DNA from: Diadema setosum
Lineage: Eukaryota; Echinodermata; Echinoidea; Diadematoida; Diadematidae
NCBI RefSeq assembly: GCF_964275005.1
Contig: NC_092700.1
Coordinates: forward strand, 15,780,617 to 15,844,616
DNA length: 64,000 nucleotides
Reading direction: 5' to 3'
Shown: in pieces, positions 8,560 through 60,440 of the stretch
Layout: each line of letters starts with the position of its first letter
How positions within the stretch are numbered: position 1 is the first letter of the stretch
The notes under the pieces: generated by a model
Told to the model about the DNA's origin: nothing
Databases searched by the model: none
What the model saw: the letters and a program-made list of their open reading frames with translations, nothing else
Made by a program: the position numbers and the translations under genes

Positions 8560-8722
8560 CCGAAGCAGCTAAACTCTTGACCACGGATTTGCAATATCAG
8601 CAATTCACGCATAACATCCGCACTCCGTTGAAATGATGTTTTCGAACTGCATGTCTTAGGTTTTGACAATCAGCATTGTATAATGCGCATGAGCAGATTA
8701 TTGATTGAATTCAGCCAATGAT
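8560..8722 (-). promoter_or_regulatory. Core promoter and untranslated exon 1 of GPCR-1 (predicted)
   Basis: Read on the minus strand: ATTGGCTGAATTCAATCAAT (inverted CCAAT), then GCTCATGCGCATTATA, then ATGCAGTTCGAA near the expected start of transcription. Exon 1 ends CTTCGG before GTAAGG (donor at 8559). The TATTTAAG box seen in other copies reads TTGTCAAAACC here, so the TATA-like element is weakened. A short upstream ORF (MLCVNC and stop) lies at 8597-8617. Equivalent modules precede every other receptor that has its upstream region in the window. Confidence 0.6.
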
Positions 8723-9031
8723 ATCATAAGCCTGTCACAATTAGACATATTACCCTTTGGAAAACACACACACCCACATACCAGGCAAAAATTAAAAGAC
8801 TGCACTCAAGCAAATTACTAATTTACCATAGTACCGTAAGGCTAAGGACTCTATCAACAATCCTGTAATTTGACACTGCCTCTGATTATTAAATTCGTTT
8901 GCATGATAACGTTTATTCAAGCAAAGCATGTCAAACACCAACAAGAATACATCACTACGTACACCAGGCATAACAAGTAATGATGCTGACTTTTAAACGC
9001 CCCTAATATTTGAATCAATTCATATAAAACT

Positions 9032-9055
9032 ATTTGAATTGAATTGAATTGAATC
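9032..9055. repeat. (GAATT)n microsatellite, short allele
   Basis: About four GAATT units. The same site in unit B (19071-19127) has about eleven units. It directly precedes the compound DNA transposon. Confidence 0.9.
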
Positions 9056-9120
9056 AAAGCGTAATGTATTTATTAAAGAGGTCTATCCTCTGTTATGTTT
9101 GAATTGCGAAGGATCGATAA

Positions 9121-10448
9121 AGGCCCTGGCACACCTTTCCGGGTAAGCTAAGAGAGCCTGTTGTGAGTAGCAATTTTCCAGCACGCAGGATTTTTTTTTT
9201 TTTTTTTTTTTTTTCGGGCGGGCAAGGATGTTAGCGAGTTAGGTACTTGCGTCTTACCTGCTAGACGAGTGTTACTTAGCTTGTATGTATTCCTTTTGAA
9301 ATGCGTGAGAGCTTCGAAACCGATCCGTTTTCAGTTACGGGGAACATACGGGGATTGCGAAGTAACTGCGTTACAGCTGCGAAGTACCTGCGTGGGAGTT
9401 GCCTGCGAGGTGCTGCCGATAAGGGCTTCCTGCTGGTGTTCTGCGTGTACCTCTTCGGGCAACCCCCCCCCCCCCCCCGCGACTCACCCGGAACAAGTTT
9501 TGAGCATGCTCAAGGTCTTGTCAAACCGTGTCTGAGGAAGCATTGCGGGTTGATTACGGAGTTGGCCCGCACATGACAGTGCTTACCACGTATCTCGCCC
9601 GTAGTTCCTCGAAGGTGCGCTCGCCAGTCCGATTTACCCGCAGCCAAGTTTTGAGCATGACCAAAACTTTTTCCTGGTGAGTCGCGGGGAGTGCTCGCAA
9701 TGGTCCACGCAGAACTCGGTCAGTAGGAGACCCGTAACTGCGGGAAGTCACAAGCAGTTGATCCGTTTGAAGTACGTAAGTTGCCTTTGGATCTCTACCT
9801 ATATGCGCCGGAAGCGCGTGTCATCTGCGGGCATTCTACGTGCACAATACGGGTGTTTTACTGCCAAGGAACGGTGTCGAAACTGCCAATATCCGTGTTG
9901 CTGGTCAGTTTTGCCGACGTGGAGCGAGTTATACGAGAAAATTACGTGCATGCTGAGGGTCAGTTAAGGCCTACTGTCTCTCTGCTGGTTAGTTGAGAGT
10001 AGGCTGCGGCTGAAATAATGTCATTCTTTGGGACTACTGTAATATCAAATTCCTTCAGTGGGATCATTCCTTCACCGAGTTGTCAGCCCTCGCTCGCCAC
10101 CGCATGCGCCTGACACGCAGGTCACAAAGGATGCACGTAAATAGAACGTAAGTAGCATGGGTCTAGCGGGTAGGAAGCACGCGAAACTCACCCAAATCCT
10201 AGTCCGCATCCAAAATTTGTCCTGCCTGCTATAAAATCCCCACAGGCGACAAACCTGCGTACCTTACCCGGAAAAGTGTGTCAGGGCCTAAACTTGGCTG
10301 CGGGTAAATAGGACTTGCATGCGCAGCTCAGATAAGTACGGGCGAGATACGTGCTAGGTATGCTGTCTTCTTCGAGGACCTCCGAATAGCAAATATTGTT
10401 TTACGCAAGTCGCACGCAAGGCTTGCTCGGAAAGGTGTGGCAGGACCT
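9121..10448. mobile_element. Compound non-autonomous DNA transposon, unit A copy
   Basis: The left end AGGCCCTGGCACACCTTTCC is matched in inverse orientation at the right end (AGGTCCTGCCACACCTTTCC when read on the minus strand, 10429-10448). A further inverted copy of the end lies inside at 10263-10289 (AGGCCCTGACACACTTTTCC on the minus strand). The element could therefore be 9121-10289 with an added 160 bp part, or two nested elements. The interior is more GC-rich than the surroundings, with no transposase-like frame, so it is a MITE-like derivative. The superfamily is not assigned. A C tract lies at 9464-9478. Confidence 0.75.
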
Positions 10449-10589
10449 GAATCAATCAAAATAATACAGAAGAAAAATAACGCTATTTTCCCCAACGTGC
10501 TATGTGCGCAGAAATCGCCACCCCACTTTACCGAATAGCGACTCTAGTTGGGCACACTTGCAAAAAAAAAGAAAAAAAAAAGGAAAAAA

Positions 10590-11040
10590 AAAGCTATGGT
10601 AAAATCTGACTGATTCCTAGTCACATCTAACAGCTTGGTGCTACTAGATATCCAGTCAAATTGACAAGATCAATCTAGTTATTCTATCTGACTTATTATC
10701 TAGTTAGATTTGACTAGATTAGGCCTATCAGTCAAATAGAATTAGATTCTGACTAAATCAGTCTAGTTATACTATTCTATCTGACTGATTATCTAGTCAG
10801 ATAGAATAACTTCTTTGACTAGATAATCAGTCAAATAGAACTGCTCAATTTTTCCTACACCAATCTAGTCATGCTATGTGATTATCAAGGCAAATCTCAT
10901 TTAGATGAAAGGGTCAGCTGTCTGCAACTAGAAATCACTAAAATTGACTAGATCAATCTACGTAGTTATGTCGATCTGACTATACGTTTAGTAAAAATCA
11001 CTAAATCATCTTGTCAATTTTCACTACGCATCCAGTCATA
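10590..11040. repeat. Hairpin-rich TAGTCA/TGACTA segment, unit A copy
   Basis: Words of the form ATCTAGTCA, TTTGACTAGAT and TCTATCTGACT recur many times in both orientations. A perfect inverted repeat with 14 bp arms (TATTCTATCTGACT) and an 8 bp loop lies at 10773-10808. No open frame is evident. It is duplicated at about 20640-21024 in unit B, where a DNA transposon has inserted. It may be a decayed foldback transposon; no clean termini were found. Confidence 0.6.
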
Positions 11041-12633
11041 CTTTGCACACCACTCAAGTGAATACTCTTTGAACATTAGCTTACCTACAGTACTTTGTTT
11101 CAAATGCGGTATTTATTGCATCAATACCAATGAGAATAGTACTGTACAAATGAAGTTGCAAACAAACGTGTACATAAGCATTCCTCAAAAGCAAGACCAA
11201 TACAAAAACAAAAGTAACCAAACAAACCGGTATTTACATTAATCTATTTCTTTCATGAGATCATTATGCTATCATGAATCAATGACCTCACATAGGAATT
11301 CATGCAAGCAAAAACCAGATATAAGTACAGGACATGATCCACTCAAAGAAAAGAATGCTGGAGCTCCTACTGCTATTTAATAGTGAAACATCTTAGTGCT
11401 CTTTACAAATTACTTATGAATATTGTTCCAATTCTTTGATTCAGCAAGATCCCTGACTCCTAATATACGAAAACCTTAAGAAGTTTCTCCACAAGTTCAA
11501 AGCATACCAAAATAAAACAAGATTGGGTTGACAATTGTTCCCAAAACCACTGTTATCTCAAACTTTGCACTGTATTTAGTACCAAAGCACTGCTTTGGAA
11601 AGGAAAGAGGTTATAAACAATTTTTCAGTATCAACAACAACAACAAAAAAATCATACATAAACATTACTGAAGGTGACTGATGTATATTAAACTCCTGCC
11701 TCACACTTGTTAAGTACCTCACACCTCTAACAAAAAAAAGAAAAAGAAAATCACAGTATCATGATATCATATTGCTCATGAATTTGAGGGGGTATTTTAA
11801 TCCATAAGATTTTGTATCTTTGTTAAAAAACATGTTGCCATGAAAATGCATTGCTTGTCATTGGCAGGCATTCTTCACAAATAAACATTACAGAAATACA
11901 TTACTTTTATGAAATACAAACTAACTTGCTCAAAAATGGTTTTTGATTCACAAGATCTGAATGATTTGAATACAAAATGTTGCCATGGCAACACACTACT
12001 TGGACACTAACTAAAAGTTACTTTTCGTATAGATTTTGGTATTAATTAGCTGATGCCGCAAGGCATTGAAAGTCTCAGGAAAATGCAAAATCCATACACC
12101 CGAGTATATTTTTAAAGTATGCAACCTTTAGTTTTTTAGTTCCTGGTATAATCTACCGTAATATAGGAGGTATATAATTTATACGGTTGGGAATATTAGC
12201 AATAGAATCATGACTGTGATGAAATTGTCCACACATTACGTACGTGTAGACTTTCTATACAACAGCATGTTACACCTGGAACTTCTGTAAATGGTACCCA
12301 GCATCTGAACAATTATGCGCCAGCTCCTTTTATTTTATATGAACTTCTCATATCGATTTAATACAAGGTTCATGATCAGACGTCTAATGGACATAGAACT
12401 AAGGAATAATTCCTCTGTATAGCAGCTCACTTACAGTACCTGGCAAGCAAGACATAGGAAATGGCGGGATTGAGGATATGAAACTGTAGCAGGGTTTTAG
12501 TGTAGATTCTCTCCGCCCCTCCCTTCATCCGCATTGTATACCAACTTGCTGAGGAAATATCATGTTATGAATGTCTCCCAAGAAGTCAACTTACCGAACA
12601 CAGATGGATTCAAAGCACTGATCCATGTCACGG
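11041..12633. other. Gene-free tail of unit A
   Basis: AT-rich sequence without a recognisable gene. It is repeated almost unchanged at about 21660-23257, and its last ~600 bp recur in more diverged form at 24561-25160. Its only evident role is as the right end of the tandem unit. Confidence 0.7.
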
Positions 12634-13284
12634 ATAATTGATGGCTATAATGTTCAGACATTTAAGGTTGACTCTCAGCATTCTAGACTGTGAGACCTAG
12701 GGAAGCTTCTAAGCAACTAAGCAATCGTCTTTTATCATCCTACCTACCAACGAGATTAGAAAACGCAACGAGTTAGAATCGGTTGTAACAAGTGAAAAAA
12801 CAATAGTCGTGTAAATGCATGATACCAAAAGTGTCTCTTCATCACCGAGCATGCCCAATGCATGCCCATGCCCATGCCCATTCGTCAGGCCCAAAATGAG
12901 GTGAAGTAGCTCAACAAACATGCTGCAATCTTAACCTAACCATGACTCTCCAGCACCAAACATTTTTCCACTGCATTTTCTGGTCCAATTATATATTCTG
13001 TCAAGCACAATGTCATTACGAACACACATTCAAATTTTTGAGTAGGGTAGGTCACATTTCTCTTCCCACAAGACTGTTGCAAATTGCACTTTCAAACTAT
13101 ATACTCGTCAATGTATTGTCAAGCAGTTACCAGGATATAATCGACCTTCCTATCTCATATGGGCAGTGTCCTTCACATAAAAGAGTACCATCTCTACAAG
13201 GCTTATTTGATTGCTAAAATGACGATCAAATAGTGCTGCTAAACTTTGTCATGGTGGTAAACAAAGTTTGTTAATATTTCGTAT

Positions 13285-14112
13285 TCAATTCAATTGAATA
13301 GAACATTTATTTCCAGATCAATTCGTGTAACAGCAGTAACAATTCAGTAAAGACAAACTGGAGGTGACAACTCAGTAAGCACAGCTTGAAGTGAGTGCAC
13401 CTTTAACATTTGAAAATGTAGTTGAATCTGATTGAAACATATCTAAAAAGACATTTTTTTTTTAATATACACGTGTACATATTTACAAGACGAGGTACAG
13501 TTACACAAGAGATTAAAGCTAGGGATGCAGGAGGGAGAACAGATAGGAAGAAGGAAAAAGAGAAAGAAAAGAAAAGAGAAGAAAGAAAAAATACATTAAG
13601 GAGAGGCAAAGAGAACCTAAAACACACTTGTAATACTAAAACAAACAAGGCAACATTGTACATACATGTACATGTATTTCATTTTAGTATGATCAAGAGA
13701 AATTTAGCAGCCCTCACTATAAACTACCTTATATGGATGAATACAACTTTTTCTTGAGTCTTATCTTAAAACATATATTGTGAGATGGTGCATTTCTTAT
13801 GTCTTTAGATAAATTGTTCCATTTCTTGGGGCCCATAAAACGAATATTATGTTGGTAAGACATGGTTCTGGGTCTGGGCAAATGCATTAATGACGAGGAG
13901 CGTGTATTGTAATTTTGCACATTCTGATTGATATCAAACAATTGAACAAAATGGTCAGGCATAAGTTTGTTGACACACTGATGTACAAAATTACATTGCT
14001 GATATGTGGTGATATTTTTCAAAGTAAGCAATTTTAGTTTTGAGTATAACGGGCCTGCTTTAGATTTCGGGTTCGCTCCATGTATAACTCTTACTATTTT
14101 AAATCAATCAGC
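13285..14112 (-). mobile_element. 5'-truncated LINE (non-LTR retrotransposon) 3' end, unit B
   Basis: A minus-strand frame ending near 13729 reads YNTRSSSLMHLPRPRT, then FMGPKKWNNLSKDIR and FKIRLKKKLYSSI. This is the usual far C-terminus of non-LTR reverse transcriptases of the CR1/jockey-like type. The 3' region contains AATAAATGTTCTATTCAATT and ends in an ATTCAA-type tail, as many LINEs do. Only about 830 bp remain, so the 5' end is heavily truncated. Unit A shows the empty site (TTTCGTATAAATCAATATC). No clear target duplication is seen. A copy interrupted at its 5' side is at 23909-24560. Confidence 0.8.
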
Positions 14113-15520: not shown

Positions 15521-15729
15521 TAAAAACTGAAGGAAAATATGAATGGTTACATTATGCTGTGTGCCACCTCTTGTTCCAAGGTACGCGTCACGGTGTACTA
15601 AGAAGGTTGATAACGGTCACCGACAAGTACAACATAAACTGCAGTTAACGGTATTGGCATGTGCACACTAGGATAGCCACAAATGTACTTAGCAAACACA
15701 GTAATCTAATTGACGTGTATTGTATTATT

Positions 15730-16487: not shown

Positions 16488-16603
16488 AAAGATAGAAGAG
16501 AATCAATTAAAGGGAAAACTTAGTTTTGGTAAGGGTTTGAGAACCCCGTCTGCCACAATTTCATATTTGCTTGTAATAATCAAAAGAGTCTACCAAGAAA
16601 CTT

Positions 16604-17946
16604 ACCTGATGAGCTAGTGGGTGATTTGAACAATTCTCCTATCGCTTTGCGGAATTCAGGATTCTGAATCGTGTAAATTACAGGATTTGCGCAAGAATTG
16701 CAGAAGGCTAGGACATTTAGAGCAGTGAAAAGGGGCCGTATAAATAGGACGCTGACACGACACGAAGGTTGTACAATAGATAAACCGTCTGTGTTGGTGT
16801 CCACGAAATGAGATAAACGCCAACAACAAGGAACAGAATCTTGAGAACATTTTTCCTAGCCACAAGATACTTCGCTGACGGGTTCGAATTATCGCATTTA
16901 GAATCTTCTCCTATCCTTCGGCGGGACTGTCGATGGAGCATCAGTGCGGTCAGAATCTGGGCTACAAGCATGATGACAGCTGGTATTAGAAACTGAACGA
17001 GGAAAAGCACACAGCCGGTGATGATCTGGGCAATCCGTGACTGAAACACCTCAGTGCACCTGTCGCCCTTGGCACCAGCCACAAACAATAAGAACAAGTT
17101 TACCAAAAATGCCACCAGCCATGACATGGCAACAGCTTTGGCAACTCTCTGCCGTGTTACAAGACGCTTGAAATGAAGAGGGTGAGCAATCGCAATGTAT
17201 CTTTCTATAGAAATCAAGGTCAGAATGAAGACGGAAGCACACACTGAAACCCACATGAGCAATGATGTGTAAACAACCTTGCAGTAGACATCCCCTAACC
17301 ATGTTCCAGGAACCTTCAGTGGTCTCGGCAGCGGAACCATGAACACTGACGTGAAGAAATCCGCAACGGCCAGAGCACCAATCAGTGCATCAGTTGACCG
17401 ACAAGCGTGGTGCCTTTGGAACAACACCAGGATCACGGTCAGGTTTCCCACCATACCCAGCATGGACATTGCTAGTTGCGGAATCGTCACCCATGTCCAT
17501 GCAACTGGCTGCCACTTCCAAATCGGCCTGGGGCTTGTAGGCTCTTCCTCATTTTGCGCAGTAAAATTCGGCGTACCAATCTTTACAGTCTCTGTATAGA
17601 TTTCGGTCATAATTTCATGGTTGATTTCTGATATATTAAAATTCCTTTCGAGAAATGTCTTGATTCGAACAATTTTGTCTTGGCGTGGGGTTGCTCCAAC
17701 ATATAAGTAGCTCTTGACAATCTCAGTAGAATCTGAAACATTGCCTAAAGGCTGCCAGTGTGTCGTCAAATTACTGTCGATAACTTCAATGTCTGAATGC
17801 CTTTTAAGGTTGACGACTGATGTCCCGACAGTGTTTAGGCCAGAATATTGTGCAGCTGTAGTGCTGACTGGTCGTGCTGTGACTGTAAGATGAACCGTTC
17901 CAGATATGACAAGAAGAACGATCGTCACGTTTATCATTATCCTCAT
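16604..17946 (-). pseudogene. GPCR-2: class A receptor pseudogene, sister of GPCR-1
   Basis: The product matches GPCR-1 at roughly 96 percent of residues from the signal peptide to TM6, starting at the same ATG (17946) behind the same acceptor (exon from 17967). It is broken in two ways. A G run at 16732-16735 has four Gs where GPCR-1 has five, which shifts the frame just before TM7. A ~600 bp deletion also removes the last ~20 codons, including the PDZ-like tail, and joins the gene to flanking sequence at about 16604. The second frame still encodes NPVIYTIQNPEFRKA. At the deletion joint the sequence CATCAG/GTAAGT resembles a splice donor. Other changes include Arg to His in intracellular loop 1 and Gly to Cys and Pro to Ser in TM3. 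A truncated receptor lacking TM7 could still be made, but function is unlikely. Sequencing error at the G run is the main alternative for the frameshift. Confidence 0.85.
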
Positions 17947-18598
17947 TTTGTCTCTGTTTTTGTTTTCCTGTAAAGAACATAGCATCGTAAAATGGAAAAG
18001 AGGAGTTGATTCATCTGTTGTTGTGTCAACGGATCTTTAAAGTGCATCACCATTCACTGTTAACTTTAAATTTGGAAACAGACGAATTTTCATAAAAATC
18101 GAAAATAAGATAGCCATGGAATTTAAAAATGACAGAAGTAGTTACATTACTTGTAACTAAGTATGCAAATCAGACGATCTTATCATGTCAACCCCTTTAT
18201 ACAAGTCTTCTTTTGACCCACTGACAAATCACTACCACTTTTTCAATTTTGAAATTAAAACATAGACCAAAACCTACCAACTTATACACAATAATGTATT
18301 TTTGCTGTAAGAATTTTCTTAGTTCCTTATTTCAAAGCGTTAGGAGTGCATTTGTTTTTTCTTTCGGTATATAGATATATATATAGATATATATTTACAT
18401 ATAAACCGACATCCAGATACCTATTTCTGTATCTGAACAGCAACACTAAGTACCTAATGCGGTGGTCTGATGATAAAAGTGACTAAAGCATAATTATGAC
18501 AAATAGAAAATAAGACTAATTATGAAATATTCAATACCGCTTCTGCTTAAAGCTGGTATTTTATTGTAGGCTTGAGTGAGTTAACTAGTAAACCTTAC

Positions 18599-18760
18599 CC
18601 GAAGCAGCTAAACTCTTGACCACGGATTTGCAATATCAGCAATTCACGCATAACATCCGCACTCTGTTGAAATGATGTTTTCGAACTGCATGTCTTTAGG
18701 CTTTGATAATCAGCATTGTATAATGCGCATGAGCAGATTATTGATTGAATTCAGCCAAAT
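18599..18760 (-). promoter_or_regulatory. Promoter module and exon 1 of GPCR-2 (predicted)
   Basis: Same layout as for GPCR-1: GCTCATGCGCATTATA, then TATCAAAG at the TATA position, then ATGCAGTTCGAA. The exon ends before GTAAGG (donor at 18598), and intron 1 would be 17968-18598. The CCAAT box reads CCAAA because TGAT has been lost after it. The upstream ORF MLCVNC is at 18636-18656. The damaged CCAAT box fits a copy under relaxed constraint. Confidence 0.55.
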
Positions 18761-19070
18761 CATAAGCCTGTCACAATTAGACATATTACCCTTTGGAAAA
18801 CACACACACCCACATACCAGGCAAAAATTAAAAGACTGCACTCAAGCAAATTACTAATTTACCATAGTACCGTAAGGCTAAGGAATCTATCAACAATCCT
18901 GTAATTTGACACTGCCTGTGATTATTAAATTCGTTTGCATGATAACGTTTATTCAAGCAAAGCATGTCAAACACCAACAAGACTACATCACTACGTACAC
19001 CAGGCATAACAAGTAATGATGCTGACTTTTAAACGCCCCGAATATTTGAATCAATTCATATAAAAACCAT

Positions 19071-19127
19071 TTGAATTGAATTGAATTGAATTGAATTGAA
19101 TTGAATTGAATTGAATTGAATTGAATC
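19071..19127. repeat. (GAATT)n microsatellite, expanded allele
   Basis: About eleven GAATT units compared with about four in unit A (9032-9055). Confidence 0.93.
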
Positions 19128-19192
19128 AAAGTGTAATTTATTTATTAAAGAGGTCTATGCTCTGTTATGTTTGAATTGCGAAGGATCGATAA

Positions 19193-20503
19193 AGGCCCTG
19201 GCACACTTTTCCGGGTAAGCTAAGAGAGCTTGTTGCGAGTAGCAATTTTCCAGCACGCAGGATTTTTTTTTTTTTTTTTTTTTTGCGGGCGGGCAAGGAT
19301 GTGGGCGAGTTCCTTACTTGCGTCTTACCTGCTAGACGAGTGTTACTTACCTTGTATGTATTCCTTTTGAACTGCGTGAGAGCTTCGAAACCGATCCGCT
19401 TTCAGTTACAGCGACATACGGGGATTGCGAAGTACCTGCGTTACAGCTGCGAAGTACCTGCGTGGGAGTTGCCTGCGAGGTGCTGCCGATAAGGGCTTCC
19501 TGCTGGTGTTCTGCGTGTACCTCTTTGGGCAACCCCCCCCCCCCCCCGCGACTCACCCGGAAATAGTTTTGAGTATGCTCATGGTCTTGTCAAACAGTGT
19601 CTTAGGAAGCATTGCGGGTTGATTACGGAGTTGGCCCACACATGACAGTACTTACCACGTATCTCGCCCGTAGTTCCCCGAAGGTGCGCTCGCCAGTCCG
19701 ATTTACCCGCAGCCAAGTTTTGAGCATGACCAAAACTTTTTCCTGCTGAGTCGCGGGGAGTGCTCGCAATGGTCCACGCAGAACACGGTCAGTAGGAGAC
19801 CCGTAACTGCCGGAAGTCACAAGCAGTTGACTCGTTTTGAAGTTGCCTTTGGGTCTATACCTATAAGCGCGTATCATCTGCGGGCATTCTACGTGCACAA
19901 TACGGATGTTTTACTGTCAAGGAACGGTGTCGAAACTGCCAATATCCGTGTTGCTGGTCAGTTTTGCCGGCGTGGAACGAGTTATACGAGAAAATTACGT
20001 GCATGCTGAGGGTCAGTTAAGGGCTACTGTCTCTCTGCTGGTTAGTTGAGAGTAGGCTGCGGCTGAAATAATGTCATTCTTTGGGACTACTGCAATATCA
20101 AAATTCCTTCAGGGGGATTATTCCTTCACCGAGTTGTCAGCCCTCGCTCGCCACAGCATGCGCCTGACATGCAGGTCACAAAGGATGCACGTAAATAGAA
20201 CGTAAGTAGCATGGGTCTAGCGGGTAGGAAGCATGCGAAACTCACCCAAATCCTAGTCCGCATCCAAAATTTGTCCTGCCTGCTATAAAATCCCCACAGG
20301 CGACAAATCTGCGTACCTTACCCGGAAAAGTGTGTCAGGGCCTAAACTTGGCTGCGGGTAAATAGGACTTGCGTGCGCAGCTCGGATAAGTTCGGGATTA
20401 GATACGTGCTAGGTATGCTGCCGTCTGCGAGGACCTCCGAAAAGCAAATATTGTTTCACGCAAGTCGCACGCAAGGCTTGCTCGGAAAGGTGTGGCAGGA
20501 CCT
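19193..20503. mobile_element. Compound non-autonomous DNA transposon, unit B copy
   Basis: Duplicate of 9121-10448, with left end AGGCCCTGGCACAC and the matching inverted end near 20477-20503. It was present before the A/B duplication, so it marks shared ancestry and not a second insertion. Confidence 0.75.
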
Positions 20504-20639
20504 GAATTAATCAAAATAATACAGAAGAAAAATAACGCTATTTTCCCCAACGTGCTATGTGCGCAGAAATCGCCACCCCACTTTACCGAATAGCGACTCT
20601 AGTTGGGTACACTTGCAAAAAAGAAAAAAAAAATGCTAT

Positions 20640-21024
20640 GGTGAAATCTGACTGATTCCTAGTCAACAGCTTGGTGCAACTAGATATCCAGTCAAATTGA
20701 CAAGATCAATCTAGTTATTCTATCTGACTTATTATCTAGTTAGATTTGACTAGATTATCAGTCAAATTAGATTCTAACTAAATCAGTCTAGTTATACTAT
20801 TCTATCTGACTGATTATATAGTCAGATAGAATAACTTCTTTGACTTGATAATCAGTCAAATAGAACTGCTCGATTTCCCTACACCAATCTAGTTATGCTA
20901 TGTGATTATCAAGGCAAATCTCAGAGATGAAAGGGTCAGCTGTGTGCAACTAGAAATCACTAAAATTGACAAGATCAATCTGCGTAGTTACGTCGATCTG
21001 ACTATACGTTTAGTAAAAATCACT
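20640..21024. repeat. Hairpin-rich TAGTCA segment, unit B copy
   Basis: Counterpart of 10590-11040. Several short deletions have shortened it, and its right part is split off by the MITE that starts at 21026. Confidence 0.55.
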
Positions 21025-21025
21025 A

Positions 21026-21624
21026 GAGGGCTTTTTACACTTGTGTGTCTTAACCCCGGACTTTCTCTGACCCAGGACTATCGTTAGTCCCGTACCAATT
21101 TTTCCAGCTTTTTACACTCGCCAATTAGTCCCGTACTATCTCTTGTCCGGGGCTAAGGAGAAAACTGACCTTTTTACACTCGTATTTCCAAACCACATGA
21201 CTTTCCAAACCACATGAATATTCATAATTACGCTGTGCACTGTACACGTACACGCACGCACCGGCAGCACTTGATTACCTCGTTTCTGATTGGTCAGTGA
21301 GGGTCGGACTTCGTCTCCGTCGCTTAGCCCAGGATTATTTTTTCGTTCTGTTTACACTCACTTGCTTGGCACCGCAATTGCAGTGCTAACCCCTGCTATT
21401 TTGCAGGGCCAGATAGTACCGTACTATCGGTGGGGCTAGCCCACTTTGGCAAAAACGAGTGTAAACAGAAAGTGGGCTAAGGATAGTCCCGTACGGGACT
21501 AAGGATAGTCCCGTACGGGACTAAGGATAGTCCCGTACCAACGATGGGGCTAAGGCCCCCCCCCCCCCCTTAGCCCCACCGTTGGTCCGGGGCTAAACAA
21601 AAATTTACAAGTGTAAAAAGCCCT
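21026..21624. mobile_element. 599 bp MITE inserted in unit B
   Basis: Ends AGGGCTTTTTACACTTGT in inverse orientation on both sides (21027-21044 and 21607-21624). Flanked by TA on both sides; unit A has the empty site CACTAAATCATC with a single TA. Inside is a 22 bp tandem repeat at 21481-21538 whose core TAGTCCCGTACGGGACTA is a perfect palindrome, and related GTCCCGTAC words recur at about 21085-21140. No transposase. A TA duplication fits a Tc1/mariner-type mechanism, though other TA-targeting groups are possible. Confidence 0.85.
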
Positions 21625-23257
21625 TAAATCATCTTGTCAATTTTCACTACGCATCCAGTCATACTTTGCACACCACTCAAGTGAATACTCTTTGAACATT
21701 AGCTTACTTTCAGTACTTTGTTTCAAATGCGGTATTTATTGCATCAATACCAATGAGAATAGTACTGTACAAATGAAGTAGCAAACAAACGTGTACATAA
21801 GCATTCCTCAGAAGCAAGACCAATACAAAAACAAAAGTAACCAAACAAACCGGTATTTACATTAATCTATTTCTTTCATGAGATCATTATGCTATCGTGA
21901 ATCAATGACCTCACATAGGAATTCATGCAAGCAAAAACCAGATATAAGTACAGGACATGATCCACTCAAAGAAAAGAATGCTGGAGCTCCTACTGCTATT
22001 TAATAGTGAAACATCTTAGTTCTCTTTACAAATTAGTTATGAATATTGTTCCAATTCTTTGATTCAGCAAGATCCCTGACTCCTAATATACGAAAACCTT
22101 AAGAAGTTTCTCCACAAGTTCAAAGCATACCAAAATAAAAAAAGATTGGGTTGACAATTGTTCCCAAAACCACTGTTATCTCAAACTTTGCACTGTATTT
22201 AGTACCAAAGCACTGCTTTGGAAAGGAAAGAGGTTATAAACAATTTTTCAGTATCAACAACAACAAAAAAAAAAAATCATACATAAACATTACTGAAGGT
22301 GACTGATGTATATTAAACTCCTGCCTCACACTTGTTAAGTACCTCACACCTCTAACAAAAAAAAAAAAAAAATCACATTATCATGATATCATATTGCTCA
22401 TGAATTTGAGGGGGTATTTTAATCCATAAGATTTTGTATCTTTGTTAAAAAACATGCTGCCATGAAAATGCATTGCTTGACATTGGCAGGCATTCTTCAC
22501 AAATAAACATTACAGAAATACATTACTTTTATGAAATACAATCTAACTTGCTCAAAAATGGTTTTTTGATTCACGAGATCTGAATGATTTGAATACAAAA
22601 TGCTGCCATGGCAACACACTACTTGGACACTATCTAAAAGTTACTTTTCGTATAGATTTTGGTATTAATTAGCTGATGCCGCAAGGCATTGAAAGTCTCA
22701 GGAAAATGCAAAATCCATACACCCGAGTATATTTTTACAGTATGCAACCTTTAGTTTTTTAGTTCCTGGTATAATCTACCGTAATGTAGGAGGTATATAA
22801 TTTATACGGTTGGGAATATTAGCAATAGAATCATGACTGTGATGAAATTGTCCATACATTACGTACGTGTAGACTTTCTATACAACAGCATGTTACACCT
22901 GGAACTTCTGTAAATGGTACCCAGCATCTGAACAATTATGCGCCAGCTCCTTTTATTTTATATGAACTTCTCATATCGATTTAATACAAGGTTCATGATC
23001 AGACGTCTAATGGACATAGAACTAAGGAATAATTCCTCTGTATAGCAGCTCACTTACAGTACCTGGCAAGCAAGACATAGGAAATGGCGGGATTGAGGAT
23101 ATGAAACTGTAGCAGGGTTTTAGTGTAGATTCTCTCCGCCCCCTCCCTTCATCCGCATTGTATACCAACTTGCTGAGGAAATATCATGTTATGAATGTCT
23201 CCCAAGAAGTCAACTTACCGAACACAGATGGACTCAAAGCACTGATCCATGTCACGG

Positions 23258-30034: not shown

Positions 30035-30205
30035 CCGAAGCAGCTGAAGCCCTCAGTACAGAAAAAGCAGTATCAGCAGTTCACGTAAATCCGCACTTCG
30101 CTGAAATGATGCATTCGAACTGAATCTCTTTAGGCTTAAATATATACATGTAGTTACCGTCAAACAATGCGCATGAGCAGAATATTGGTTGAATCCAACC
30201 AATGA
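30035..30205 (-). promoter_or_regulatory. Promoter module and exon 1 of GPCR-3 (predicted)
   Basis: Minus strand: ATTGGTTGGATTCAACCAAT, which is two CCAAT boxes facing each other in a near-perfect palindrome, then GCTCATGCGCATTG, then the strongest TATA of the set (TATATATTTAAG), then CAGTTCGAATG. The exon ends CTTCGG before GTAAGG (donor at 30034). The upstream ORF at 30073-30114 has 13 codons and ends IYVNC and stop; here the short ORF has lost its own ATG but is joined in frame to an earlier one. Confidence 0.65.
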
Positions 30206-37698: not shown

Positions 37699-37860
37699 CC
37701 GAGAAGCAGATGGACTCCTGAACAAATATTGGCAATATCAGCTTGTCACGTACATCCGCACGTCCTTAAAATGATGTATTCGAGCTGCATGTCCTCAAGC
37801 TTAAATAGTCGGCGTCAAATGATGCGCATGAGCAGACTGTGGGCTGAATTCAGCCAATGA
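37699..37860 (-). promoter_or_regulatory. Promoter module and exon 1 of GPCR-4 (predicted)
   Basis: Minus strand: ATTGGCTGAATTCAGCCC, containing the perfect 14 bp palindrome GGCTGAATTCAGCC next to a CCAAT box, then GCTCATGCGCATCA, TTTGACGCCGAC, TATTTAAG and ATGCAGCTCGAA. Spacing puts transcription start about 30 bp below the TATA-like box. The exon ends CTCGG before GTAAGT (donor at 37698). The upstream ORF at 37738-37755 encodes MYVTS. Good agreement with GPCR-5 and GPCR-6. Confidence 0.65.
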
Positions 37861-42536: not shown

Positions 42537-42717
42537 CCGAGAAGCAGCTTGACTCCTGAGCAAATATTAGCAATATCAGCAGGTCACGTACATCCGCACG
42601 TCCTTAAAATGGTGTATTCGAGCTGCATGTCCTCAAGCTTAAATAGTCGGCGTCAAATGATGCGCATGAGCAGAGCATGGGCTGAATTCAGCCAATGATA
42701 ATTCAGCCAATGATAAA
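42537..42717 (-). promoter_or_regulatory. Promoter module and exon 1 of GPCR-5, with doubled CCAAT box (predicted)
   Basis: Same order as for GPCR-4: GGCTGAATTCAGCC palindrome, GCTCATGCGCAT, TGACGCCGAC, TATTTAAG, ATGCAGCTCGAA, and donor CTCGG before GTAAGT (42536). The block ATTCAGCCAATGATA is repeated in tandem (about 42687-42716), giving two CCAAT boxes 17 bp apart. The upstream ORF at 42576-42593 encodes MYVTC. Confidence 0.65.
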
Positions 42718-46329: not shown

Positions 46330-47736
46330 TTAGACATCGACACTGAAAATTGTTGAATCTGTTTCACCTGTTATTTTTTCGCTGAACAAAGCTGTTCTTC
46401 TCGATGTCCTAGTGGTTGATTTGAACAACTCTCCTATTGCTTTGCGGAATTCAGGATTCCGAATCGTGTAAATGACAGGATTTGCGCAAGAATTGCAGAA
46501 GGCTAGGACAACCAAAGCAGAACTGAGAGGGCTGTACAAATAAGACGTTGGCAAAAATCGAAAGTTGTACAAGAGATATGCCGTCTGTGTTGGTGCCCAA
46601 GAGATGAGGAAAACGACGACAACAAGGAACAGAATCTTGAGAACACTTTTCCTTGCCACGAGGTACCTAGCTGACGGTTTTGAGTTTTTACAGTTGTAAT
46701 CTTCTCCCAGCCATTGGCGGGATTGTCGATGGAGCACCAGTGCGGTGAGAGCCTGGGCTACAATCATTATTAAAGCCGGTATGAGAAACTGAACAAGGTA
46801 AAGCATACAACCTGAGGTAACCTGGGAAAGCCGTGACTGAAATGACACAGCGCACTCGTCGTTCTTTGCACCAGCCACAAATAATTCGAATACATTTGCA
46901 AGAAACGCAACCAGCCATGTCACGGCAACAACTCTTCCAACCCTTTGCCGTGTTACAAGACGCTTGAAATGAAGAGGGTGGGCAATCGCTATGTATCTCT
47001 CTATTGGAATCAAGGTCAGAGTGAATATGGAGGCATCCACTGAAACCCACATTAACATGGACGTGTAAACCACCTTGCAGAAGATATTCCCTAGCCATGT
47101 TCCAGGAACCCTAAGTGGCGTAGGCAGCGGAATCATGAACACTGACGTTAAGAAATCCGCAACGGCCAGAGCACCGATCAATGTATCTGTCGACCTGCAA
47201 GTGTGGCGCCTTTGGAATAACACCAGTATCACGATCAGATTTCCCACTATTCCTAGAACGGACATTGCAAGCTGCGGAATTGTCACCCATGTCCATGTAA
47301 CTGACTGCCACTTCCAAATGGGTAAGGAGTCCTCATATTGCCCCGTTAAATTCAGCGTACTAATGTCAGCAGTCTCTGTATAGATTTCTGTCTGATTTCC
47401 ACGGTTTATTCCAATCACATTAAAATCCATTCGTGGAAATGTCTTGATTTGAACGCTTTTGTCGTACTGTTGTGTTGTGTCGTTATGCAGGCCTAAGGAT
47501 CTCGTTTCGCACCGAGTAGAAACTAAATCATTTTCTAATGGTTGGGCATGTGTCGTCAAATTGCCGTGGATGACCTTGATGCTTGAATTACTTTCAAAAT
47601 GAACAAGCAGTGCCTCCGTAGTATTTGTGGTAGCATATTGAGGGGCTGTAGTTTTGACCGGTTGTCCTGTAACTGAAGGATGAACCGTTGAAGATATGAT
47701 GAGGAGAATGAACTTCCAAGTTTTCAGTACCCTCAT
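46330..47736 (-). CDS. GPCR-6: class A seven-transmembrane receptor, intact
   Basis: 468 residues in one exon. Signal peptide about 1-24. The ectodomain has the most sequons in the array (N38, N50, N59, N85, N114, N129) and one unpaired cysteine (C76). ERY at 246-248, NPVIY at 419-423, TM3/loop 2 cysteine pair present. TM6 reads SWAPTQ in place of SWTPTQ. The tail ends IFSVDV, keeping the PDZ-like end. The start follows the acceptor TTCTTTACAG (exon from 47752); the longer in-frame extension upstream is intronic. Predicted intron 1 is 47753-49451. Ligand unknown. Confidence 0.93.
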   Translation of the reverse strand: MRVLKTWKFILLIISSTVHPSVTGQPVKTTAPQYATTNTTEALLVHFESNSSIKVIHGNLTTHAQPLENDLVSTRCETRSLGLHNDTTQQYDKSVQIKTFPRMDFNVIGINRGNQTEIYTETADISTLNLTGQYEDSLPIWKWQSVTWTWVTIPQLAMSVLGIVGNLIVILVLFQRRHTCRSTDTLIGALAVADFLTSVFMIPLPTPLRVPGTWLGNIFCKVVYTSMLMWVSVDASIFTLTLIPIERYIAIAHPLHFKRLVTRQRVGRVVAVTWLVAFLANVFELFVAGAKNDECAVSFQSRLSQVTSGCMLYLVQFLIPALIMIVAQALTALVLHRQSRQWLGEDYNCKNSKPSARYLVARKSVLKILFLVVVVFLISWAPTQTAYLLYNFRFLPTSYLYSPLSSALVVLAFCNSCANPVIYTIRNPEFRKAIGELFKSTTRTSRRTALFSEKITGETDSTIFSVDV

Positions 47737-49451: not shown

Positions 49452-49612
49452 CCGAAGCAGTGGAATTCCTGAGCACAGATTAGCAATATCAGCAGTTCAC
49501 GTATACATCAGCACTTCGTTGAATGATGCATTCGAACTGCACGTCTTTTGGCTTAAATAGTCGGCGTCAAAAGATGCGCATGAGCAGAGTATAGGTTGAA
49601 TTCAGCCAATGA
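49452..49612 (-). promoter_or_regulatory. Promoter module and exon 1 of GPCR-6 (predicted)
   Basis: Minus strand: ATTGGCTGAATTCAACC, GCTCATGCGCATC, TTTGACGCCGAC, TATTTAAG, TGCAGTTCGAATG. Donor CTTCGG before GTAAGA (49451). Two tiny upstream ORFs are possible: MYT at 49497-49508, and an earlier ATG giving MHHSTKC. A short CA-rich tract lies upstream at 49656-49680. Confidence 0.65.
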
Positions 49613-52702: not shown

Positions 52703-54100
52703 CTAGACATCTAATTTGAAGATGCTCGAATCTCCGTCACATATTATTTTTTCGCTGAACAAAGCCGTTCTTCCCGATATGCTGGTGGTCGATTTGAACA
52801 ATTCTCCAATCGCCTTGCGGAATTCAGGATTCCGAATTGTGTAAATGACGGGATTTGCGCAAGAATTGCAGAAAGCTAAGACAACCAAAGCAGAACTTAG
52901 AGGGCTGTACAAAAAGGACGTTGGCAAAACACGAAGGTTGTACAAGAGATATGCCGTCTGTATTGGTGTCCACGAGATGAGAAAAACAACGACAACAAGG
53001 AACAGAATTTTGAGAACACTTTTCCGAGCCACAAGGTACTTAGCAGTCTGGTTTGAGTTATGGCAACTTGAATCTTCTCCTAGCCTCTGGCGGGATTGTC
53101 GATGAAGCACCAGTGCGGTGAGAACCTGGGTTACAAGCATTATGAAAGCCGGTATGAGAAACTGAACGAGGAAAAGCATACAACCTGAGGAAACCTGGGA
53201 AAGCCGGGATTGAAATGTAGCAGTACACTTGTCATCCTTCACATGAGTCACAAACAATAAGAAAAAGTTTGCCATGAACGCGACCAGCCATGTCAACGAA
53301 ATTATCTTGCCAACTCTCTGCTGTGTTACGAGCCGCTTGAAATGAAGAAGGTAAGCAATCGCAATGTATCTCTCTATTGGAATCAAGGTCAGAGTGAAAA
53401 TGGAGGCATCCACTGAAACCCACATTAACATGGAAGTGTAAACTACCTTGCAGTAGACAGCCCCTAACCATGTTCCGGGAACCCTGAGTGGCCTAGGCAG
53501 CGGAACTATGAAATCCGCAACGGCCAGAGCACCAATCAGTGCATCAGTCGACCGACAATTGTTGTGCCTTTGGAACAACACCAGTATCACGGTTAGGTTT
53601 CCCACGATACCCAACGTGGACATTGCTAGTTGTGGAACCGTCAACCATGTCCATGTAACTGACTGCCACTTCCAAACTGGCCGGGGGAGGACATGTTCTC
53701 CATCATTTTGCGCAAAAGAAATTGGCGTACCAGTCTCAGTTGTTTCTTTGTAGATTTCAGTAAGATTTTCGCGGTTGATTTCAAAAGTAAGGAAATCATT
53801 CAGTGGAGAAGTCACTGTTTTAAGTCTTTTGTCATGGTATTGGGATGTTCCAATACGTGGACAGCTCTCTCCGACCTGAGTAGAAACTGAACAAGCGTCT
53901 ATTTGTTGTCTATGTGTCGTCAAATTCCTATCAATGACATCAATGTCTGAATGACTTTTAAAGTTGGCGAGTGATGACCTAACACTTTCTGGAGTACAAC
54001 ATCGGGCTGTTGTAGTGTTGGCCGGCTGTGCTGTGATTGTCAGATGAATCGTTCGAGATATGATGACAACAACGATTGTCCGACTTGTCAGCATCCTCAT
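52703..54100 (-). CDS. GPCR-7: class A receptor with a 5-residue TM2 deletion
   Basis: 465 residues in one exon. Signal peptide about 1-24, ectodomain with four cysteines (C34, C35, C70, C80) and sequons at N28, N59 and N112. TM2 reads ALAVADFIVPLP where relatives read ALAVADFFTSVFMVPLP, an in-frame loss of five residues that shortens the helix by more than one turn. Intracellular loop 2 reads AYLLHF in place of AHPLHF, and TRQRV is TQQRV. ERY (243-245), SWTPIQ in TM6, NPVIY (416-420) and the loop cysteine pair are present; the tail ends IFKLDV. The frame is open, but folding may be impaired, so it may be an early pseudogene or a specialised receptor. The start follows the acceptor GTTCATTACAG (exon from 54116). 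Confidence 0.88.
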   Translation of the reverse strand: MRMLTSRTIVVVIISRTIHLTITAQPANTTTARCCTPESVRSSLANFKSHSDIDVIDRNLTTHRQQIDACSVSTQVGESCPRIGTSQYHDKRLKTVTSPLNDFLTFEINRENLTEIYKETTETGTPISFAQNDGEHVLPRPVWKWQSVTWTWLTVPQLAMSTLGIVGNLTVILVLFQRHNNCRSTDALIGALAVADFIVPLPRPLRVPGTWLGAVYCKVVYTSMLMWVSVDASIFTLTLIPIERYIAIAYLLHFKRLVTQQRVGKIISLTWLVAFMANFFLLFVTHVKDDKCTATFQSRLSQVSSGCMLFLVQFLIPAFIMLVTQVLTALVLHRQSRQRLGEDSSCHNSNQTAKYLVARKSVLKILFLVVVVFLISWTPIQTAYLLYNLRVLPTSFLYSPLSSALVVLAFCNSCANPVIYTIRNPEFRKAIGELFKSTTSISGRTALFSEKIICDGDSSIFKLDV

Positions 54101-55561: not shown

Positions 55562-55700
55562 CAGAATACCAACAGATCAACGGACATCCACACGTATCAA
55601 AATGATGTATTCAACCTGCATGTCTTTACGCTTTAAATATAGTCGGCGTCAAAATGAAAAATGCGCATGAGCAGAGCATTGGTTGAATTGAGCCAATGAT
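55562..55700 (-). promoter_or_regulatory. Promoter module and shortened exon 1 of GPCR-7 (predicted)
   Basis: Minus strand: ATTGGCTCAATTCAACCAAT (paired CCAAT boxes), GCTCATGCGCATTTTT, TTTTGACGCCGAC, TATATTTAAAG, ATGCAGGTTGAATAC. The part of exon 1 with the common CTTCGG/GTAAG donor is missing; a weaker candidate, CTG before GTAATA, lies at 55561. The MYVNC-type upstream ORF is absent. The promoter is therefore well kept but splicing may be changed. Confidence 0.55.
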
Positions 55701-55752
55701 ATCACACGCCAAACACAGTTACGCATATGACGCTTTTACATTCACATACACA

Positions 55753-55755
55753 CAT

Positions 55756-55793
<38 letters not shown>
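55753..55793. repeat. (CA)n microsatellite upstream of the GPCR-7 promoter
   Basis: Pure CA run of about 19 units, about 55 bp upstream (gene orientation) of the CCAAT block. Confidence 0.93.
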
Positions 55794-55796
<3 letters not shown>

Positions 55797-57251: not shown

Positions 57252-58613
57252 TTAGACATCGACAATGTGAATTGTTGCGTCTGTATTACCTGTACTTCTT
57301 ATTTTTTCGCTAAACAAAGTCACTCTTCCCGATGTGTTAGTGGTTGGTTTAAACAGTCCTCCTATCGCCTTGCGGAATACAGGATTCCAAATCGTGTAGG
57401 GCTGTACAAATAGGATGTTGGCAGAATACGAAGGTTGAACAAGAGATATCCCGTCTGTGCCGGTGTCTATGATAAGAGGAAAACGACAACAAGGAACATA
57501 ATCTTGAGAACAATTTTTCTAGCCACAAGGTACTTAGTTGACGGGTTTGAGTCGTAGCAGTTTGAATCTTCTCCCAGCCTCCGGCGGGATTCTCGATGGA
57601 GCACCAGTGCGAGGAGAGCCTGGGCTACAAGCATGATGACAGCCGGTATGAGAAACTGTACGAGGTAAAGCATACACTGAGCCTGTGTTAATCTGAGAAA
57701 GCTGTGAATGAAAAGTCTCAATACACATGTCACCTTTCACACCAATCACAAAGAATACGAAACTGTTCGCCATAAATGCTAAAATCCATGTCAATACAAC
57801 AACTTTGCCAACTCTTTGCCTTGTTACAAGACGTTTGAAATGAAGTGGGTGGACGATCGCAATGTATCTCTCTATTGGAGTCAAGGTCAGAGTGAAGATG
57901 GAGGCATTCACTGAAACCCACATTAACATGGATGTGTAAACTACCTGGCAGTAGACATCCCCCAACCATGTTTCAGGAACCCTTAGTGGAGTCGGCAGCG
58001 GAACCATGAACACTGACGTCAAGATATCCGCAGCGGCCAGAGCACCGATCAGTGCATCAGTCAAACGGCAATTGTTGCGCCTTTGGAATAACGCCAGCAT
58101 CACGATCAGGTTTCCCACTATTCCCAGCACAGACATTGCTAGTTGTGGAATCGTCACCTATGTCCATGTAACTGACTGCCACTTCCAAGGCACGAGGGGG
58201 ACAGTAGATTCTTTCTCATTTTGCGCTGCATAATTCTGCGTACCAATCTCCACAGTATCTTTATGGACTTTTGTCAGGTTTTCGCGGTTGATTTCAAACA
58301 GGTCAAAATCCTTTTGTGGAAGTATCTGAATTTGAACGTTTTTGTCGCAGCGTGAAGTTGTTTCGATATATGAATAGCTCTCTTCAAACTGAGCAGAAAC
58401 CGGAACATTGTCTGAAGGTTGTCTGTGCGTCGTCAAATTTCTGTTGATTACTTCAATGTCTGAATGACTTTGAAATTTGATAACTGATTGCCACACTGTG
58501 TTTTGGGTAGAATGTTGATCAGCTATAGTGCTGTCCGGTTGTGCTTTGACACTAAGATGAACCGTTCCAGATATGATAAGAAGAATAGTCGTCCGAGAAG
58601 CCATCATCCTCAT
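57252..58613 (-). pseudogene. GPCR-8: class A receptor pseudogene
   Basis: Starts normally at 58613 behind an acceptor (ATTTTACAG, exon from 58628), with signal peptide and ectodomain. It then carries a TAG at 58158-58160 where relatives have the Trp of WTWVTIP before TM1. Next come a frameshift near 57675 at the start of TM5 and a second Trp-to-TAG change in the TM6 SWTP motif near 57470. A deletion of about 58 bp near 57398 removes most of TM7, including NPVIY. The 3' end remains recognisable (LFSEKI, then VDV and stop at 57252). ERY and the loop cysteines are still readable. Predicted intron 1 is 58629-60275. Clearly non-functional as a seven-transmembrane receptor. Confidence 0.93.
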
Positions 58614-58929
58614 TTTTGTTCGTTTTTACTGTAAAATACATGATATCATAAATAGATATGAGAACGTGACTCTAATATCGTGACTTCAGACGACCTTGGC
58701 TAATTAAAGTACATTTCTATTCAGTTTTCACTTTCTAAACTTGGTAAGATCATAAGGACAGTGGAAGTTTCATCAAAACCCAAAACGAAAGAACAATGGG
58801 CGTCTAAAATGACACCTTTACTTCGAGAAACAGTTGCCCATTAGAACTCCAGATACAAATCAACAAAATCAACCAAATCAACCCAATATTCCACCAAAAG
58901 TGAGCACAGGATTTGTGAGTTGCAATCAT

Positions 58930-59500
58930 TAAAAAAAAAAAACGCAAAAGCACCCTCCTGTGGGAGGGAGAATACCCCATCCCCCGTCCTTTTCCCGCCT
59001 GTTCTCCCCCGCATACTTATATAACATTTTTTTTTCCTGATTGTCAAAGAAATTCCAGCAAAAGCAGATCTTTGACATTCTAGTCGAAAATTGAATAAGC
59101 TCCTTCGAATCGTAGGGCATATCCCCTCCCACCCTCCCTTTGCTTTAAGGTTTCCCTCCGTGCACACGTAGTACACTTCGGGGATTGACAGTTTCGAAAT
59201 ATTCCACAAACAGTGTGTACCAGTTTGTTTTATTTCAATCTTAAAACTTCAAAAGATCCGTCTTGTGGGAGGGAGTATCCTCTCATCCCTCCAATCCACC
59301 TCAATAGACTTTTAATAGTAAACAGTGATGACGCACACTCGAAACAAGAGCGGAAATACCGGGATTTAGCCATTCAATTTTTCCTGAATATTTCTTTTTC
59401 TTACATATTTCACAGAAACGCTGAACTATAGGAAGGAAACTGCAAATTCCCCTCGTGTGCGAGGTGAGATACCCCCAAATCATAGACGGATCCACGTCTC
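58930..59500. repeat. Degenerate G/C-run repeat, inverted relative of the 4300-5330 array
   Basis: GTGGGAGGGAGAATACCCC near 58959, CATATCCCCTCCCACCCTCC near 59118, GTGGGAGGGAGTATCC near 59263 and CCCCTCGTGTGCGAGG near 59450 recur about 150 bp apart. TTTCGAAATATTCCACAAA (59192-59210), read on the minus strand, matches the TGTGGAATATTTGAAA word of the unit A/B arrays. It lies in intron 1 of the GPCR-8 pseudogene. Confidence 0.6.
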
Positions 59501-60275
59501 TGACACTCAGAGATTTTGGTAGCTATTAATTAGTTCTCATAATGGCTATTTACCAATCATACAGCAGGAGGGTTTTGAGGTTATCGTAATATATACCGCA
59601 TTTATTGATTTGGCTAGTAAAGTTGTAACCAATGTTATTCTTCCATGAGAACAGATAAGACGTTAGGTTCTAAGATTCGAGCCTTTTATGTTAGTTTTGA
59701 TATGCCAGATTAAAAAAAAAAAAGATGCGACATTGGTTATATAACTGACTTTAAATTCATTCTACAAAGTCATTAGTTTCAATGAGAGTCCTTTTTCACC
59801 TGACACTCCTTTGCGTTGTATCTAATCTTGTCACATGATTGTCTCCTATTATTGTTGAAGATACATCTTAAATTCAAATGAAAATAAGATAGTAATACAA
59901 CTAATTTCGTTTAAAATTGAATAAGCTACTTTGATTATACCGATACCACAACAAGGTTGTAAACCGTTCTATACCAGAGATTATTTAGAGCTGATTTGCG
60001 ACAGTTCATTACTTCAAAGGCATCATGTCAGTGAGTACAATGATTTTTTCTTTGGGGTATTCAAGGTATTAGAAAAATGTTGCAGAAACGTATTACTATA
60101 TTGCAGTGGCAAAACACATTGACGATGCAATCCTACAATCTAATAAGAAACAAATAAACCTCACCTTTCTGAGATAAGATAAAACAGGCCAGCTGTGAAA
60201 TGTTGTTCAAATTCTGTTTCTGTTCAGAGCCAATATTCTATTACAGGCTTCAGCAAATTATCTACAAAACCTTAC

Positions 60276-60440
60276 CCGAAACAGCTGAACTCCGTAAGCA
60301 CAGATTAATGGCAACATGGGCAGTTCACATACATCAGCACTTCTTCCTTGAAATGATGTATTCGACCTGCATAATAGGCTTAGATAGTCGTCGTCAATGA
60401 CGCGCATGAGCATAGCATGGGTTGAATTCAGCCAGTGATA
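60276..60440 (-). promoter_or_regulatory. Decaying promoter module and exon 1 of GPCR-8 (predicted)
   Basis: Minus strand: CACTGGCTGAATTCAACCC (CCAAT changed to CCAGT), GCTCATGCGCGTCA, ACGACTATCTAAG (TATA-like box changed), ATGCAGGTCGAATAC. Donor GTTTCGG before GTAAGG (60275). The upstream ORF at 60305-60334 reads MYVNCPCCH because its usual stop is lost. Changes in both CCAAT and TATA elements fit a gene no longer under selection. Confidence 0.6.

Follow-up and report, generated by a model that had tools for sequence, protein, structure and literature searches.

The window analyzed here, a stretch of 64,000 nucleotides of the echinoid Diadema setosum genome (contig NC_092700.1, positions 15,780,617 to 15,844,616), carries receptor genes arranged in tandem and, upstream of their coding exons, copies of a short module that combines a putative promoter with a non-coding first exon. 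The long minus-strand reading frames encode class A seven-transmembrane (7TM) receptors: all four that were scanned match Pfam 7tm_1 (E values from 1e-38 to 6e-41), and the nearest solved chains of the window receptors include adrenergic, cholecystokinin, and opioid receptors. For comparisons between genes we used 19 genes with an open frame of at least 430 amino acids within 4.2 kb of a module; 7 of the 26 genes found by motif had no such frame and were left out. ERY is present in all 19 receptors and NPxxY in 17. In the seven window genes shown, an acceptor (TTACAG or TTGCAG) lies 16 to 21 nt ahead of the signal-peptide methionine, and similar acceptors were found in most of the 19 compared genes. 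Because the acceptor lies near this methionine, we read the gene as a non-coding exon 1, one intron, and one coding exon. The mitochondrial COX1 contig uses AAA for Asn, ATA for Ile, and AGA/AGG for Ser at sites conserved in animals, which we take to be the echinoderm code (NCBI table 9). The earlier note had placed eight modules on the minus strand; all eight are present, its coordinates being the GGTAA positions at the 3′ ends of the modules. The features of the window are as follows.

8560 to 8719, minus strand: module 1, with ATTGG, NRF1-like site at 8684 to 8695, exon 1, and GTAAG donor; TATA-like box absent
18599 to 18759, minus strand: module 2, NRF1-like site at 18724 to 18735; TTTGG in place of ATTGG; TATA-like box absent
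30035 to 30203, minus strand: module 3, NRF1-like site at 30168 to 30179; both CCAAT arms; TATTTAA
37699 to 37858, minus strand: module 4, NRF1-like site at 37823 to 37834; TGACGCCGAC; TATTTAA
42537 to 42696, minus strand: module 5, NRF1-like site at 42661 to 42672; a second ATTGGCTGAATT element immediately upstream
49452 to 49610, minus strand: module 6, NRF1-like site at 49575 to 49586; query for the genome-wide DNA search
55562 to 55697, minus strand: module 7, NRF1-like site at 55662 to 55673; both CCAAT arms; weak donor GGTAAT
60276 to 60436, minus strand: module 8, NRF1-like site TGCTCATGCGCG at 60401 to 60412; ACTGG in place of ATTGG
6511 to 7923, minus strand: receptor 1 coding exon (class A 7TM); exon 2 begins at 7944, preceded by TTTACAG
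16601 to 17946, minus strand: receptor 2 coding exon (the broken receptor as a whole, 16601 to 18036); reading frame broken near 16735
27206 to 28615, minus strand: receptor 3 coding exon
34684 to 36093, minus strand: receptor 4 coding exon; query for the genome-wide protein search
39486 to 40880, minus strand: receptor 5 coding exon
46330 to 47736, minus strand: receptor 6 coding exon
52703 to 54100, minus strand: receptor 7 coding exon
57255 to 58652, minus strand: receptor 8; reading frame broken into three pieces
62998 to 63987, minus strand: receptor 9, truncated where the window ends; module outside the window, at C16:15846380
61450 to 61514, minus strand: possible decayed module (exon-1) fragment of a lost copy (model positions 55 to 117, E = 0.019)

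In the eight window copies, the module spans from the GGTAA donor end to the ATTGG box 135 to 168 bp upstream, and its elements stand in the same order. The 12-base element GCTCATGCGCAT reported by the earlier note is exact in seven of them and has one mismatch in the eighth. When up to two mismatches were allowed, the window contained 14 matches against 3.6 expected, and none of 100 shuffles reached 14. The other elements listed by the note vary more from copy to copy than it had implied. Both arms of its "CCAAT palindrome" (ATTGG and CCAAT) occur together in just two window copies and in 2 of the 41 full modules of the array; ATTGG by itself is more common (32 of 41). TGACGCCGAC is exact in four window copies and has one mismatch in one more; across the array, it was found in 12 of 41. 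A TATA-like box, TATTTAA or TATCTAA, is present in six window modules and absent from the copies at 8.6 and 18.7 kb; by the pattern used, 24 of 41 array modules have such a box, which is TACTTAA in 8 of these. ATGCAGTTCGAA is exact in two window modules and lies within two mismatches in all eight. The donor is GTAAG in seven window modules, the 55.6-kb copy having GGTAAT only; across the array, GGTARG was found in 34 of 41 full modules with the pattern and range used.

To place the window in the genome, we used receptor 4 as the query of a protein search (912.7 Mb), which listed 85 matches; 82 of 1164 first-look candidates were scored, so the receptor counts given here are lower bounds. Tandem receptor clusters were seen among the 85 listed matches, this genome alone being compared. 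An array of ~310 kb (C16:15.757–16.069 Mb) contains 41 listed receptors, all on the same strand and spaced a few kilobases to about 16 kb apart; the short protein matches at C16:15837874 and C16:16051672 were merged as pieces of receptors already counted. A module was assigned to a receptor when located between it and the next listed receptor upstream. All 41 listed receptors have one: It is full in 40 cases (one receptor has two) and partial, without CCAAT and site, upstream of receptor 15887890. The distance from the module to the end of the protein match is 0.5 to 2.5 kb, except for two receptors at 4.8 to 6.0 kb. Each of the 14 array genes without a listed exact 12-mer nearby still has the module (E values from 3e-33 to 3e-25). 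The case with two modules, 1.2 kb apart, is a receptor fragment (L020, C16:15974659 and 15975899), the sole such case among the 41.

In the genome-wide DNA search with one module, all 40 scored matches (54 candidates) fell in the C16 array or in a block on C10 (about 28.33 to 28.44 Mb, L009 to L012), which repeats part of that array in inverted orientation. The two are 94 to 97% identical in the main alignments, with shorter pieces at ~70 to 82% (four stretch pairs), and the inverted block could stem from a true, recent segmental duplication or from a misplaced allele. The earlier note had proposed a genome search to learn whether the module marks the whole receptor family. It marks every listed receptor of the array (one by a partial copy), but it was not found in any of 21 upstream regions taken from divergent relatives (44 to 55% identity over the 7TM match), where the best E values were 0.058 (5 regions) and 0.03 (16 regions). 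In the searches made, the module is restricted to one receptor clade.

The module is much better conserved than its surroundings, as the earlier note had claimed. Over the 171 pairs formed by the 19 genes, mean identity was 0.79 for the promoter, 0.73 for exon 1, 0.60 for the upstream stretch from −300 to −60, 0.57 for the intron, and 0.49 for shuffled introns. The promoter was more similar than the intron in all 171 pairs and more similar than the upstream stretch in 170. Identity at four-fold degenerate sites of the same genes was 0.69, below that of the promoter. In a sliding profile of 26 copies, conservation stays on a plateau between about −40 and +140 relative to the site. The module is inherited together with its gene: Module identity and receptor identity are correlated (Mantel r = 0.51, p = 0.0001; r = 0.19 without the four closest pairs). 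We also counted departures from the array consensus, column by column, in 40 full modules found with or without the exact motif. The departure rate was 3.5% for TGCTCATGCGCA, the lowest 12-column window being one base off at 3.3% and the median 14.9%. The CCAAT part and the 5′ part of exon 1 each departed at 10%, the TATA-like box and the start region each at 13%, and other parts at ~20%. These comparisons support conservation of the module sequence beyond shared descent.

Shifted by one base, GCTCATGCGCAT becomes TGCTCATGCGCA, which is one mismatch away from the NRF1 consensus YGCGCAYGCGCR; a singly mismatched NRF1 site is our best reading of the module core. Of the 41 full modules, 39 have an intact right half-site YGCGCR. 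All 41 carry T or C at position 7 and A or G at position 12, as NRF1 permits, and one copy departs from Y at position 1, having G there. In the divergent relatives, the sense strand of 15 of the 21 upstream regions bears an NRF1 site with no more than one mismatch (shuffle mean of 0.21, maximum of 3; control DNA, 0.37), and in 7 regions ATTGG lies within 35 bp upstream of it (shuffle mean of 0.01, maximum of 1). Full NRF1 sites, for example, TGCGCAGGCGCA and TGCGCATGCGCA, occur in these subfamilies; the sites of L029, L031, L051, L056, and L059 fit the NRF1 consensus pattern, and L032, L057, L058, and L060 have two-mismatch sites at a similar position. The site is upstream of a TATA-like box in several groups and stands before an own exon 1 and GTRAG donor in most. 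Since divergent relatives keep the site without the module, we read the 12-mer as an NRF1 site and regard this as the decisive evidence. Thus, the suggestion of the earlier note that the modules serve a common regulatory input gains from the presence of an NRF1-type site in the divergent subfamilies too.

A combined pattern, ATTGGYT-N10–22-CATGCGCR, was derived from the array after L032 and L033 had been seen. It has 79 matches in the genome, compared to 16 for a backward control: The C16 array accounts for 27, the C10 28-Mb block for 7, and a C10 cluster at 7.13 to 7.28 Mb for 9, and the other 36 are scattered. The 43 matches in the three receptor clusters are all in sense orientation. In the C10 7.1-Mb cluster, which is separate and spans ~140 kb, 8 of 11 listed receptors have the pattern 1.1 to 1.8 kb upstream of the 7TM match. 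The fixed parts of the pattern are 21 bases apart in the array and 11 to 12 in this cluster, a difference that points to a shared grammar rather than one copied block. On C16, the region at 16.072 to 16.146 Mb (L029 to L031 and L058 to L061) holds adjoining distant receptors on the same strand with other promoters and first exons; its aligned regions have a box of TATAAA or TATATAAA type and offer a natural contrast to the window array.

The NRF1 gene was found at one locus on C2 (four exon matches). An exon aligned to human NRF1 (8k4l; E = 2e-47) retains R206, N242, and R244, in chain numbering that we derived for 8k4l; these are DNA-contact residues according to the available part of PMC10810270. 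The same source gives the NRF1 site as GCGCNTGCGC and, for a human NRF1 fragment, dissociation constants (Kd) of 0.31 μM for the optimal site ATGCGCATGCGCAT, 2.23 μM for ATGCtCATGCGCAT, which is identical to the main-array site, and 1.27 μM for ATaCGCATGCGCAT, as found in L050, L062, and L063. By these values, the sites of at least two subfamilies lie one defined step below the optimum, and we infer that weakness of the site may itself have been selected.

Several observations weigh against this assignment. At position 4, the site has T, C, or A and in none of the 41 modules the consensus G, so the left half-site is mismatched in all of them; in the part of PMC10810270 available, an intact double site is reported to be required for effective NRF1 activity, and NRF1 may therefore bind the array site poorly. 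Taken alone, position 4 is not statistically remarkable. Two array copies (L027:3161 and L035) have three mismatches in the site, and a TATA-like box was found in only 24 of 41 modules and ATTGG in only 32. Where the exact motif is lacking (15 copies), departures are no rarer in the 12-mer (7.8%) than in a stretch of exon 1 (6.1%), although this set is biased against the 12-mer by its selection (all 15 carry a departure). The site-found group of that comparison includes the partial module L017:571–649, counted as gaps. Among divergent relatives, one of the 15 sites, that of L055, falls within a GC/GT repeat and could have arisen by chance, leaving 14; no NRF1 site was found in L053, and none near promoter-like sequence in L054. 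Last, the members of a subfamily are related, so these counts are not independent.

The misfit at position 4 also speaks for a different factor, such as a POU protein bound to the palindrome ATGCGCAT, or a sensory selector, with the likeness to NRF1 being secondary. A cell-type factor would account for tissue restriction better than a broad activator, and 27 of 41 copies have ATGCGCAT in full. However, the palindrome is broken in the other 14, while the NRF1 half-site is kept in 39; the left half TGCnCA is retained although a POU palindrome does not need it; and divergent subfamilies carry full NRF1 sites. The 41-copy site comparison thus disfavors the POU palindrome as the principal explanation, and we consider a factor other than NRF1 possible but much less probable.

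We favor, with a probability of roughly 0.7, a reading of the sequence in which each array gene would have its own NRF1/NF-Y-type promoter and non-coding exon 1, providing uniform weak basal competence. An inverted CCAAT box (ATTGG, NF-Y type) is followed 19 bp on by the 12-bp NRF1-type site. Next come a degenerate box of TATA type, a TCATT resembling an initiator, a putative untranslated exon 1 (~75 to 100 nt if transcription starts there), and the GTAAG donor. An intron of ~0.5 to 2.5 kb in nearly all genes separates these from exon 2 with the entire 7TM frame. The module would be the transcription start region, with echinoderm NRF1 (P3A2 type) and NF-Y as likely activators; the usual single mismatch would weaken each promoter, and every member would probably receive an equally low basal competence. 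Since NRF1 and NF-Y act as broad activators, cell-type restriction or choice would lie outside the module. The gene used in each cell would be set elsewhere, by a distal element, by chromatin, or by the one-strand layout.

The earlier note had also linked the common module to the choice of one receptor per cell or to co-expression. Choice is neither shown nor implied by the modules, because identical promoters make all genes equally competent and offer no means of telling them apart; co-expression of the subfamily fits equally well. A version in which weak, equal promoters compete for a single distal activator, in the manner of the olfactory receptors of vertebrates or the clustered protocadherins, would agree with the large one-strand tandem array, the uniform promoters, the non-coding exon 1 followed by a single coding exon, and the usual site one base from the NRF1 optimum. 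Equal promoters are, however, equally expected under co-expression, and we regard such competition as doubtful. Transcriptional interference, whereby an active promoter reads through and silences the genes downstream, appears unlikely. It suits the layout, in which all 41 listed receptors share one strand, lie a few kilobases to ~16 kb apart, and have a module each, and there is a model in ant odorant receptors (available text of PMC12393541); yet unequal crossing-over also yields one-strand arrays.

NRF1 is sensitive to CpG methylation (PMC12420836, in the part available), and a methylation gate at the CpG of the site is possible. In a more elaborate scheme, one NRF1 core, suboptimal in several subfamilies with private promoters and first exons, would, as a low-affinity site, gate rare, probabilistic single-receptor activation through this methylation-sensitive CpG, amounting to an independently evolved, olfactory-like choice with NRF1 in place of Ebf/Lhx2. 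We think it improbable that the whole scheme holds.

That the modules are alike merely through recent tandem duplication, without selection, is very improbable: The correlation of module and receptor identity and the window stretches of ~3 to 4.5 kb duplicated at 92.6 to 98.4% would agree with it, but the introns of the same pairs are near shuffled identity while the modules are not (171 of 171 pairs), the promoter exceeds four-fold sites, and the comparison of flanks disfavors duplication as the only cause. An origin of the module as a mobile element was rejected, given that all 40 scored module matches lie in the array or its C10 copy and that the 12-mer has unrelated neighbors at the 10 other places viewed (L001 to L008 and two in L028). 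An upstream open reading frame in exon 1 was rejected as well; short ATG…TGA frames are frequent, but the GGATG start is absent in 16 of 41 modules.

Other observations concern the window itself. Receptors 2 and 8 retain their modules despite broken reading frames. (GT)n microsatellites lie ~60 to 110 bp upstream of several window modules, bordering the conserved block. The observed/expected ratio of CpG is 1.07 in the eight modules (8560 to 60440) and 0.77 in the window. Two neighboring stretches recur ~10 kb further along: 6578 to 11003 at 16602 to 21025 (92.6% identity) and 10991 to 13935 at 21613 to 24560 (98.4% identity).

Shared promoter motifs in large receptor families are already known from mammals, Caenorhabditis elegans, and the protocadherins. 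Mammalian olfactory receptors have their coding sequence in one exon behind one or more non-coding 5′ exons, as in the array, and, like the array receptors, they are a large family of class A 7TM receptors whose promoters have short elements in common. Those elements are O/E-Ebf and homeodomain sites with some TATA boxes in the available text of PMC3247239, which makes no mention of NRF or CCAAT. The array elements are instead of CCAAT and NRF1 type, and nearly the whole 125 bp aligns within the array subfamily. The C. elegans chemoreceptor genes of the ADL neuron type likewise form a battery behind a single motif, an E-box bound by HLH-4, a selector basic helix-loop-helix protein acting in one neuron type (PMC5908064, available part); unlike that motif, the array element belongs to a fixed core promoter, and its likely factor is broad. 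Clustered protocadherins share with the array tandem same-strand units with one conserved element per promoter, the conserved sequence element (CSE) bound by CTCF, and are used stochastically, the variable exons of PCDHA being spliced to constant exons (PMC8787164, in part). In contrast to PCDHA, each array gene has a complete coding exon of its own. Ant odorant receptors are a different receptor superfamily, although their arrays, like this one, consist of dozens of tandem receptors with own promoters. Interference has been measured in those arrays (PMC12393541, available text), whereas what is seen here is the layout.

Among echinoderms, the olfactory receptor (OR)–like "surreal-GPCRs" are of the rhodopsin class and underwent lineage-specific tandem expansions, as described in the available texts of PMC7042368 and PMC5442662, which do not mention "promoter." The window-type receptors are alike in phylum, class, and tandem arrangement and look like an expanded set of echinoderm receptors. 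They differ in that the published echinoderm OR signature LxxPxYxxxxxLxxxDxxxxxxxxP is complete in none of the 19 receptors, and for this reason, we do not file them as OR-like; the half LxxxDxxxxxxxxP is present in 18. The CpG-poor promoters of mammalian tandem arrays are discussed in the available part of PMC10463633. Among the best-matching open-licence titles in PubMed Central, we found no paper on promoters of echinoderm receptor families.

One useful result is negative: The shared promoter cannot be the selector. The module together with exon 1 also serves as a practical finder for the 5′ ends of these genes. What is understood of how large chemoreceptor families are controlled comes mainly from mammals, nematodes, and insects. 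For a receptor clade of an echinoderm, the promoters can now be read, one per gene and alike in design. This makes the question of their control testable: There is a single candidate factor and a single site, in dozens of natural copies, and sister subfamilies carry natural variants of the site.

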